Assembly (NCBI GenBank): GCA_021648265.1
Contig: JAKITD010000008.1
Span: forward strand, 1-64,000
DNA length: 64,000 nt
Origin: Flavobacteriaceae bacterium
GTDB taxonomy: Bacteria; Bacteroidota; Bacteroidia; Flavobacteriales; Flavobacteriaceae
Direction of reading: 5' to 3'
Below the pieces are notes generated by a model, which saw nothing but the letters and a program-made list of their open reading frames with translations, searched no databases and had not been told where the DNA came from. The position numbers were made by a program, and so were the translations under genes. Positions 52,988 to 57,215 of the stretch are shown here, one piece after another; within the stretch, counting starts at the first letter, position 1, and the number at the start of each line of letters is the position of its first letter.

Positions 52988-53467
52988 TTAAAATTCTTTA
53001 AAAATAGAATGCATTAATCGTTTTTTATCATTGATGCTCTCTTCCATTGAAATCATCGTTTCTGTTCTTGTAACTCCATCAATATCATCTATTTGATATA
53101 TAATGTTTTTGGCTTGATCGGTATCTTTTGCACGGATTTTACAGAAAATATTAAACTTTCCTGTTGTTACATGAGCAACTGTTACAAATGGAATTTCGCT
53201 AATACGTTCCAAAACAAATTGCGTTTGCGAAGTTTTATTTAAGAATAGACCAACATAAGCGATAAATGAGTATCCAAGTTTTTTATAATCTATTGTTAAT
53301 GAAGAACCGGTGATTAATTTGGTTTCTTCCATTTTGCGAACCCTAACATGAACAGTTCCTGCAGATATATCTAACTTTTTTGCAATATCTGTAAAAGGAA
53401 TTCTAGTGTTTTCTATTAACATGTCTAGAATTTTATGATCGGTATCGTCTAATTTAAATTTTCCCAT
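52988..53467 (-). CDS. Lrp/AsnC family transcriptional regulator
   Basis: The 159-residue protein has an N-terminal helix-turn-helix (about 8-58, LDDTDHKILDMLIENTRIPF-type start and DISAGTVHVRVRKME) and a RAM ligand-binding domain (about 70-150). It would bind DNA as an octamer in response to an amino acid. It has its own promoter and terminator. Its target genes are unknown. The M14 peptidase gene lies upstream on the same strand and could be a neighbour in function. Confidence 0.9.
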   Translation of the reverse strand: MGKFKLDDTDHKILDMLIENTRIPFTDIAKKLDISAGTVHVRVRKMEETKLITGSSLTIDYKKLGYSFIAYVGLFLNKTSQTQFVLERISEIPFVTVAHVTTGKFNIFCKIRAKDTDQAKNIIYQIDDIDGVTRTETMISMEESINDKKRLMHSIFKEF

Positions 53468-54670: not shown

Positions 54671-54689
54671 TGTTTACATTCTGCAACAA

Positions 54690-54726
54690 CAAAGGTAAAC
54701 AATGTGCTGTTTACATTTGTAAACAG
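54690..54726 (-). promoter_or_regulatory. M14 peptidase promoter with a 20-bp operator-like palindrome
   Basis: The -7 element TACCTTTG (54690-54697) faces the peptidase gene. Upstream of it CTGTTTACATTTGTAAACAG (54707-54726) is a perfect palindrome of 9-base arms and a 2-base centre. It covers the place of the -33 box. Half-sites GTAAACA (54695-54701) and TGTTTACA (54671-54678) lie nearer the gene. Confidence 0.55.
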
Positions 54727-54900
54727 TGGTTTCCAATAGATATGTTTAGCATTGTAAACTAAAATTCAGATTTTTGATGAATTTTCATGCAGAAAAATTA
54801 ACTCAACTATATATTAGTCACATATTATTTATTATCAGCTATTTAATACGCTTTATTTAAAGTATAAAATAAATCACATAGCTATTAATCCTTTTCTTTT

Positions 54901-54936
54901 TTTGTTAGTTTATAATTATATGTTACATTTGTAAAC
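54901..54936 (+). promoter_or_regulatory. HTH gene promoter TTTG-N19-TACATTTG with overlapping operator
   Basis: TTTG (54901-54904) and TACATTTG (54924-54931) are 19 bases apart, an excellent Bacteroidota promoter. The near-palindrome TGTTACATTTGTAAACA (54921-54936) overlaps the -7 box and has the same half-sites as the palindrome near the M14 gene. This suggests autoregulation. Confidence 0.65.
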
Positions 54937-54963
54937 ACAAACAAACACCTTTTCAACATTACA

Positions 54964-55374
54964 ATGGTAAACAGCTCGGAATTCGGAAATAGGCTTCAAA
55001 AAATACTAAATTATTACAGTATTTCTGCTACTGAATTGTCCAACCAAATCAGCTTTAATCGCTCTACTATTTCCCACCTACTTTCAGGTAGAAATAAACC
55101 TAGTTTGGATTTTGTAATGAAGGTACTTCAGAAATTTCCAGAGGTAGAATTGTATTGGTTAATGAATGGAAAAGGAAACTTTCCTTCAGATAAAAACAAT
55201 AACTTTCCTCCTACTTCTACTTTTCAAAAAGAGGTTAAAAAACCACTTCTTTTAAAAAAAGAAGAAAAACTGGAATTAGACCCAAATCAATTTTCAGATC
55301 CAGATGCTTCTCATAAAATTGATCGGATTATCATTTTCTTTAAAGATGGAAGTTTTAAATCGTTTAAAAACTAA
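54964..55374 (+). CDS. XRE-type helix-turn-helix regulator
   Basis: The 136-residue protein has an N-terminal HTH_3/Cro-CI-type domain (about 7-63; ATELSNQISFNRSTISHLLS and GRNKPSLDF). A flexible linker and a lysine-rich C-terminus follow (about 75-136), without a known ligand or protease domain. It is the most likely protein to bind the TGTTTACA/TGTAAACA sites on both sides. The first codons (ATGGTAAACAGC) contain a further half-site. Regulation of itself and of the M14 peptidase is inferred. Its signal is unknown. Confidence 0.8.
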   Translation: MVNSSEFGNRLQKILNYYSISATELSNQISFNRSTISHLLSGRNKPSLDFVMKVLQKFPEVELYWLMNGKGNFPSDKNNNFPPTSTFQKEVKKPLLLKKEEKLELDPNQFSDPDASHKIDRIIIFFKDGSFKSFKN

Positions 55375-55417: not shown

Positions 55418-55789
55418 ATGCGAATTCTATCTACATTATTACTTGCCTTATTGCTCTTTAGTTGTTATTCACCAGAACGAAATTGCAAAGATTTTAAAAC
55501 CGGTACTTTTGAATACGAAGCTCTAGTTGGCACTGAGGTTTTAACTACCACTTTTTTTAGAAATGATACTATTGAAATAGATTATTTTAAAGGAAAGTCC
55601 GACACTTCATCAATCCGTTGGATCAACGATTGCGAATATATTGTTCGGAAAATAAATCCCAAAAATATGGCGGAAGAAAAAGCAATTCACATGAAAATTC
55701 TAACCACAAATGGAGATGAATACCTTTTTGAATACAATATAGTTGGCAATACAAAAAAACAAAAAGGAACTGCAAAAAAGATAAACTAA
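55418..55789 (+). CDS. Small lipoprotein of unknown function
   Basis: The 123-residue protein has a lipoprotein signal (MRILSTLLLALLLFSC, lipobox LFSC with Cys16). The mature part is beta-strand-rich, with NCKDFKTGTFEYEA and a second Cys in INDCEYIVRK. Homologues in Flavobacteriia are sometimes named 'DNA topoisomerase IV', for which there is no basis here. It should be anchored in a membrane of the envelope. The trmL start codon follows its stop immediately, so the two are probably co-transcribed. Confidence 0.7.
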   Translation: MRILSTLLLALLLFSCYSPERNCKDFKTGTFEYEALVGTEVLTTTFFRNDTIEIDYFKGKSDTSSIRWINDCEYIVRKINPKNMAEEKAIHMKILTTNGDEYLFEYNIVGNTKKQKGTAKKIN

Positions 55790-56877: not shown

Positions 56878-56908
56878 CACCGCCTATAGTTCACTACAAA
56901 ATAAAAAA

Positions 56909-57211
56909 GCAGACCTATAAGCCGGATCCTGTTTCACCAAAGTGAATCTCATCATTTATCTAAAAATATTGTTACCAATATTTTTTATCTGCCTACCCTC
57001 TTACATTGGGCGGGAACCCTCAAAAGCAAGTTTACATGACATTGCACCGCATAGAGTTTACCTGGTTTCACTACAGCATTACCTGTACATTCTTTCTGTT
57101 GCACTTGTCCTAATACGTATAAACGTACTGACGGCCGTTAGCCGCTATGCTTCCCTATGGTGTCCGGACTTTCCTCCTCGAAATAAATACGAGACGATGA
57201 GACGGTCTGCT
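56909..57211 (-). ncRNA. rnpB: RNase P RNA
   Basis: The minus strand has the universal 5' block GAGGAAAGTCCGGACACC, the P4-type sequence region near GGCTAACGGCC, a central GTGAAACCAGGTAAACTC, the block GAGGGTTCCCGCCC and the 3' block ATCCGGCTTATAGGTCTGC. The first GCAGACC (57204-57210) pairs with the last GGTCTGC (56909-56915) as helix P1. A run of six T follows at 56903-56908, so a terminator is combined with the 3' end. About 300 nt is rather short, suggesting reduced peripheral helices. It is the catalytic RNA that trims tRNA 5' ends. Confidence 0.93.
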
Positions 57212-57215
57212 GCTG

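Follow-up and report, generated by a model that had tools for sequence, protein, structure and literature searches.

The question raised by this locus is whether, and in what manner, two divergently transcribed genes share a single regulatory switch. The window, by which we mean the whole 64-kb stretch of flavobacterial DNA that was analysed, contains a divergent pair consisting of an M14 metallopeptidase gene on the minus strand and the gene for a 136-aa XRE-type regulator on the plus strand. A sequence-only reading of this DNA had noted a palindrome and six copies of one half-site around these genes, and it had proposed cooperative repression of both. The palindrome CTGTTTACATTTGTAAACAG at 54707-54726 and the half-sites are present as claimed; TGTTACATTTGTAAACA is also present, although it spans 54921-54937, and the end given for it (54936) was one position short. 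The GTTTAC/GTAAAC half-sites start at 54672, 54695, 54709, 54719, 54754, 54931, and 54967. The intergenic stretch of about 300 bp thus holds 7 of the 47 half-sites of the window, whereas no other 300-bp stretch, in a scan advancing by 50 bp, has more than two, and one of its sites, dyad B (Table 1), is the sole exact GTTTAC-N4-GTAAAC in the 64 kb. A palindrome scan allowing three mismatches was undecisive when applied to the window alone (3 matches versus 1.19 expected, with 10 of 100 shuffles reaching 3), and because of this weak result conservation across the relatives was examined.

The protein encoded by the minus-strand gene matches PF00246 with 50.4 bits against a cut-off of 21.6, which identifies it as an M14 zinc carboxypeptidase. 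Residues H69, E72, H160, and E242 are invariant in an alignment of 32 sequences (L034 was left out, as were L053, L012, and L030, where a stop fell inside the coordinates used); we take the first three to be the HxxE...H zinc ligands and E242 to be the catalytic glutamate of this family. Its AF2 model has a pLDDT of 92, and the 50 PDB matches shown for the model are M14 carboxypeptidases and similar proteins that share the generic fold with TM values of about 0.5, due to which no substrate is proposed. No export signal was seen in the peptidase upon inspection by eye. The lrp-like gene adjoins the M14 gene on the same strand in all 34 of the named loci where both were found (36 examined), and it may be co-transcribed with the peptidase gene, in which case control by the switch would extend to it. 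On the other side, the regulator gene is followed in 30 of 36 named loci by a lipoprotein-like gene in the same orientation, which is a possible operon partner of the regulator. Its product had no match in Pfam or NCBIfam; in the loci L038 and L039 this protein shows 94% identity to that of the window, compared with 87-88% for the regulator. Further along, beyond TrmL-like (SpoU) and VF530-type genes, a bacterial RNase P RNA of class A is located at 56902-57213 on the minus strand (179.5 bits).

Table 1. Positions of genes, operator dyads, and promoter elements in the window.
Feature	Position	Strand	Remarks
Lrp/AsnC-type regulator gene	52988..53467	-	Follows the peptidase gene after 39 bp
M14 metallopeptidase gene, 387 aa	53507..54670	-	PF00246; divergent target gene
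Half-site TGTTTACA	54671..54678	+	Adjoins the peptidase start codon; outside the conserved array
Dyad A	54685..54700		24 bp from B; the window's copy has one good half, the right one (AACAACAAAGGTAAAC)
Peptidase -7 box TACCTTTG	54690..54697	-	Inside dyad A
Dyad B	54709..54724		Perfect GTTTACATTTGTAAAC; covers the -33 region upstream of the peptidase gene
Dyad C	54744..54759		GTTTAGCATTGTAAAC; 35 bp from B
Central conserved element	54832..54862	+	Between the clusters
TTTG, possible -33 element for the regulator gene	54901..54904	+	Window sequence
Dyad D	54921..54936		TGTTACATTTGTAAAC; near the regulator gene
Regulator -7 box TACATTTG	54924..54931	+	Inside dyad D
Dyad E	54957..54972		CATTACAATGGTAAAC; includes the regulator start codon ATG (54964-54966)
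XRE/Cro-type regulator gene, 136 aa	54964..55374	+	HTH_3; alignment of 38; AF2 model
Small lipoprotein-like gene	55418..55789	+	3' of the regulator gene; conserved

The comparison started from 190 entries, viz. the window, two copies from its own genome, 38 named loci and 149 other places that matched the regulator, taken from the best 150 places for 283 matching genomes. Removal of 11 duplicates left 179 distinct entries, and removal of another five whose stretch lacked a divergent M14 gene (L047, L073, L074, L083, and L151) left 174 loci including the window. Unlike the scan of the window alone, this comparison was decisive: a weight matrix, which was built upon the same loci, finds 5.17 sites per locus versus 0.18 in Markov-shuffled sequence. 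Its consensus is a GTTTACAWWTGTAAAC-like dyad of 16 bp. Hence, although the clustering of half-sites reported earlier is real, the conserved unit is not the half-site but this dyad with its N4 centre, of which there are five. Dyads were found in 154 (A, with scores of at least 6), 168 (B), 128 (C), 155 (D), and 169 (E) of the 174 loci that possess both genes. The sites are therefore conserved, where a lack of conservation in such relatives had been named by the earlier reading as something that would refute its proposal. Dyad C is absent in 46 of these loci, and the window's own dyad A is not among the sites that the matrix scan scored for the window. The half-site at 54671, which had been counted with the operators, was scored in no loci other than the window and L038-L040, which are its closest relatives, and does not form a conserved part of the array. 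The spacing is 24 bp for A-B, 34-35 bp for B-C, and mostly 34-36 bp for D-E; these values were bounded by the search windows, but when pair distances are counted with unlimited spacing, 24 bp (157 pairs) and 34-36 bp (266 pairs) also stand out as maxima. A D-E separation of 24-26 bp instead of 33-37 bp is seen in 12 of 154 loci (L049, L064, L068, and similar ones), and in 12 loci dyad E is placed at -17/-18 rather than at -7; both changes are shifts of about one helical turn.

The dyads are positioned upon the promoters themselves. The consensus of the flavobacterial -7 box is TAnnTTTG (PMC9723704). Within the A sites this motif is present in the direction of the peptidase gene in 145 of 154 loci and in the opposite direction in two, and within the D sites it is directed towards the regulator gene in 144 of 155 loci, with five in the opposite direction. 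The upstream elements are less uniform. The regulator promoter had been described as TTTG-N19-TACATTTG, which is found in the window, but only 55 of 155 relatives have a TTG at a distance of 19-20 bp. Similarly, the palindrome that had been assigned to the -33 place of the peptidase promoter does lie over that region as dyad B, but a TTG at 19-20 bp occurs in none of 154 loci; instead, in 105 of the 154 a TTG that is part of dyad B is located 16 bp upstream of the peptidase -7 box. Dyad E extends into the regulator gene, where the Asn at codon 3 is encoded by AAC in 166 of 169 loci, as compared with 310 of the 1127 Asn codons within the next ~116 codons. Due to this excess, the first residues of the regulator must be regarded as constrained at the DNA level. 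Based upon the conservation of the dyads and the presence of the -7 boxes inside A and D, we infer that both genes are jointly repressed, and consider this part of the original proposal to be well supported.

The operator appears to be dedicated to this locus. The exact consensus occurs 22 times in 299 genomes of the family (in 21 genomes), and 20 of these sites, from 19 genomes, lie in the 3-kb stretch around the regulator gene; the other two are inside other reading frames. An M14 gene is present in the stretch in 16 of the 19 genomes and missing in three (L202, L203, and L209). In these three small genomes (1.1-1.5 Mb) the regulator gene and a single exact operator are retained together with an lrp-like gene, with no M14 gene between them. 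As the operator is kept where the peptidase gene is lacking, autoregulation seems to outlive the peptidase target. The same observations bear upon the idea that the operators belong to some other regulator, with the XRE gene merely one of its targets. Although the binding by the XRE protein is putative, which leaves room for such a reading, the retention of the operator beside the regulator gene without an adjoining M14 gene, together with the location of 20 of the 22 exact sites in the 299 genomes, makes it highly improbable. A scan for further targets, which the sequence-only reading had suggested, brought out none that stands out. In the window's own genome, palindromes with up to two mismatches numbered 7 in the forward search versus 1 in a backwards control, and a wider regulon was rejected; the six matches away from the locus were all inside open reading frames. 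In 39 relatives a one-mismatch search gave 36 matches, some of them from the regulator locus itself, versus 18 for the backwards control. There may thus be a few additional targets, but the operator is nearly confined to the regulator locus.

The distance between the two clusters of dyads was measured from B to D in 152 loci, the 22 of 174 loci lacking one or both of these dyads being left out. The values observed were 193 bp (one locus), 201-204 bp (9), 211-215 bp (70), 217 bp (one), 221-226 bp (60), and 232-235 bp (11). The distance steps by helical turns, and only one of the 152 loci, that with 217 bp, falls outside of these steps. In a strict subset of 108 loci, where A, B, D, and E all score at least 12, the gaps between the distance clusters are empty, and 91 of the 108 are in phase by a fixed rule, which tolerates a deviation of 1.75 bp from 213.4 bp plus a multiple of 10.5 bp. 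We have considered that the steps could be an artefact of registering a site by the 10-bp offset of half-sites within a dyad; this is countered by the empty gaps in the strict subset and by the high-scoring sites in every length class, with median B scores of 17-24 across the classes.

Common ancestry was allowed for by using independent pairs from a FastTree tree of both proteins. In 19 of 76 such pairs the distances differ by at least 4 bp, and in 15 of these 19 the difference deviates by no more than 1.75 bp from a multiple of 10.5 bp (P = 6e-5 versus the one third expected if length changes were uniform over 4-24 bp); among the exceptions are two of the 76 pairs, which differ by 5 and 8 bp. 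For two control distances the corresponding numbers were 10 of 40 (peptidase start to B) and 14 of 50. The fixed rule was also applied to held-out loci, of which L257 was dropped as too short and 53 were processed, with six of the 53 left out as weak; for the genus of G127, 30 of 45 matches were available as loci. Of 47 usable loci, 36 were in phase. The 11 that failed had distances of 211 bp (four), 231 bp (one), 232 bp (two), 243 bp (one), and 219 bp (two), or, in the case of L246, a misassigned site. Those with 211, 231, and 232 bp are just beyond the tolerance and 243 bp exceeds it by 0.15 bp, whereas the two with 219 bp (L227 and L277) are truly out of phase. Two held-out loci, L248 and L251, are identical to L040 and L038 of the training set; their removal leaves 45 loci, of which 35 are in phase, and 20 of these 45 share a distance of 233 bp and are mostly from one genus. 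When all 199 loci were pooled (both copies included, and the value of 249 bp for L246 corrected manually to 213 bp), 80 of 99 independent pairs differed by 0-2 bp, none by 3-8 bp, and 19 by at least 9 bp, 14 of the latter being in phase for a period of 10.5 bp (P = 4e-4, on the same assumption of uniform length changes). In a scan of periods all values from 9.5 to 13 bp gave P < 0.05 and those of 6-9 bp gave no excess, so that the period is not sharply fixed.

Helical steps of this kind are to be expected from a loop between the clusters or from some other phase-dependent complex there. The simplest account that dispenses with a loop is local repression, where dimers bind cooperatively within each cluster and block the two promoters separately, and the steps result from, e.g., common indels of ~10 bp. 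Each -7 box is already inside a dyad, so that a loop is not needed to close it, and the genomes L202, L203, and L209, with no M14 gene in the stretch, retain the regulator with one exact site. However, this account does not predict the steps over the range of 193-235 bp, and it leaves unexplained that the distance from the peptidase start to B is unphased (10 of 40); we consider it rather unlikely. The dyads could also nucleate a continuous filament of repressor across the intergenic region, which, being itself helical, would keep the phase. Regularly spaced sites and a phase kept across the region would suit a filament, but the ~160 bp between C and D contain few scored dyads and a different conserved element, and a filament seems to us quite improbable. 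Because the spacing is stepped, the evidence points instead to DNA looping around this central element, which goes beyond the local cooperativity alone that was originally envisaged.

In the loci of the relatives the central block consists of TTTTCAGNNNNTTAA-N6-TTATATAAAG. It was sought 65-115 bp before D. A good match was obtained in 136 loci, and in 112 of these the block is 88-91 bp before D; its distance to B is mostly 110-114, 122-125, 133-135, or 143-144 bp. The consensus for binding of IHF is WATCARNNNNTTR, and the core of the central block resembles it. Of 164 loci, 107 have the word WWTCARNNNNTTR between B and E, and in 101 of the 164 it is within 10 bp of the midpoint; in reversed spacers, which served as a control, it was found in 17 of 164 and near the middle in 2 of 164. 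The IHF-like word is missing between B and E in the other 57 loci. In the window, TATCAGCTATTTA occupies 54833-54845, and its centre (54839) is offset by 1.5 bp from the B-E midpoint (54840.5). Two genes of the HU/IHF family are present in the genome, and an IHF/HU-type bend perhaps pins the centre of the proposed loop. Lrp proteins bind and wrap AT-rich DNA, and the bending of the AT-rich centre could be due to the neighbouring Lrp/AsnC protein instead of IHF/HU, which would join amino-acid sensing with the XRE repressor. That the lrp gene adjoins M14 in the same orientation in all 34 named loci with both is in keeping with this suggestion, but the central core matches the IHF-like WWTCARNNNNTTR and no clear dyad is apparent in it by eye; we consider a role of Lrp at this place rather unlikely.

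The regulator has features that would suit bridging. It scores 23.3 bits against PF01381 (HTH_3), just above the cut-off of 23, which makes it a protein with an XRE/Cro-CI-type HTH; the score for PF12844 (HTH_19) is 28.8 bits, under the cut-off of 30.2. An identity as HigA antitoxin was rejected (17 bits for TIGR02607 versus a cut-off of 47.7). The HTH of PDB 3bs3, a putative DNA-binding protein, is similar (E = 0.00018), but the match spans only profile positions 3-70, the chain is of 76 residues, and the entry names no function. In an alignment of 38 sequences the HTH (residues ~1-70) is followed by a linker that is variable in length and sequence and by a conserved, IDRIVIFYKDGSFK-like C-terminal hairpin. 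In the AF2 model (mean pLDDT 77.6) the HTH is confident, linker residues 79-88 and 96-106 have pLDDT values below 50, and strands are formed by residues 121-125 and 131-135. Based upon this model, the conserved tail is likely an oligomerisation (dimer-dimer) contact on a tether.

These considerations lead us to the following reading, to which we assign a probability of roughly two in three: a dedicated, autoregulated repressor would close both promoters in one loop, helped by a central IHF/HU-type bend. In this scheme dimers of the 136-aa XRE-type protein would bind to the five 16-bp dyads, A, B, and C covering the peptidase promoter, and D and E covering the -7 box and start codon of the regulator gene. 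The dimers of the two clusters would then meet through the C-terminal hairpin on its flexible linker, forming a loop of ~20 helical turns whose closure would be aided by the bend at its centre. Such a loop would shut both promoters and might also silence the lrp and lipoprotein genes that lie downstream, subject to a postulated inducer.

GalR is a repressor of the LacI/GalR family and Rco is an Xre-type regulator. Both take part in known loops that the flavobacterial locus may resemble by analogy, a likeness rather than an established membership. In the gal repressosome of Escherichia coli, formed by GalR and HU, a repressor bridges two operators, a site for an architectural protein is at the apex, and the helical arrangement of the operators is important (PMC4693257). 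However, that system has two operators and a loop of 113 bp, whereas here five dyads, clusters ~213 bp apart, and two divergent genes are involved; the present regulator has an XRE-type HTH in place of a LacI/GalR-family one, and its operators on both sides are in helical phase with the exceptions noted. In the RcoLS20 switch of plasmid pLS20, divergent promoters and two operator regions are bridged by a tetrameric regulator, the spacer is bent, and a 5-bp insertion disturbs regulation (PMC4207663). Unlike the flavobacterial locus, it is a Gram-positive plasmid conjugation switch, with operators 75 bp apart and a static bend. The non-canonical LexA of Bacteroidetes (PMC8565304) is a phage-repressor-like regulator from the same phylum, and one from Weeksellaceae binds TTAC-AAATT-GTAA. 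It belongs to the S24 family and its sites have N5 centres, and an identity with LexA was rejected, as our regulator has no S24 match at E<=0.01 and its operators have N4 centres.

Of 299 genomes drawn from the family, 283 contain a match to the regulator at E<=1e-6, some of these matches possibly being non-orthologues. At the level of the order, 71 of 119 genomes match its profile at E<=1e-10, 14 being from Flavobacteriaceae and 57 from ten other families (f2-f5 and f7-f12); the weaker matches are perhaps alike in the HTH only. The dyads recur at the regulator gene in other families of the order. Two loci from f2 (L230 and L231) retain A-B-C at 24 and 33-34 bp. Nine loci from f5 (L234-L238, L240, L242, L243, and L245) contain a denser array of dyads close to the regulator start with no clear two-cluster layout, several of them with steps of ~22-23 and 32-34 bp; here the sites at a regulator of the same family are arranged differently. 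In two loci from f8 (L239 and L241) two strong sites are 201 and 191 bp apart, respectively, and no M14 gene was found in the stretch.

Conclusive cases of regulatory DNA loops were described in 2014 as remarkably low in number (PMC4207663). Among open-access titles and abstracts we recognised no report of a regulatory loop in flavobacteria or of a role for this regulator or peptidase, although the regulator has matches in 283 of the 299 family genomes. The natural variation over some 200 loci does the job of phasing constructs made in the laboratory, and looping is therefore directly testable. A broader proposal, which in our judgement is evenly balanced, is that the locus represents an ancient, family-wide chromosomal loop, in which an XRE-type repressor with a disordered linker and hairpin tail bridges clusters ~20 turns apart around an IHF-type bend, one of the dyads also provides the start codon of the repressor gene, the helical phase is kept, and via lrp the switch possibly acts upon the amino-acid or peptide response. 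If this is true, the dyad at the start codon would mean that the operator fixes the first residues of its repressor, the keeping of phase over length changes of up to four turns would constitute a natural "helical-phase experiment", and the adjacent lrp gene may let the switch set the response of these bacteria to amino acids or peptides.
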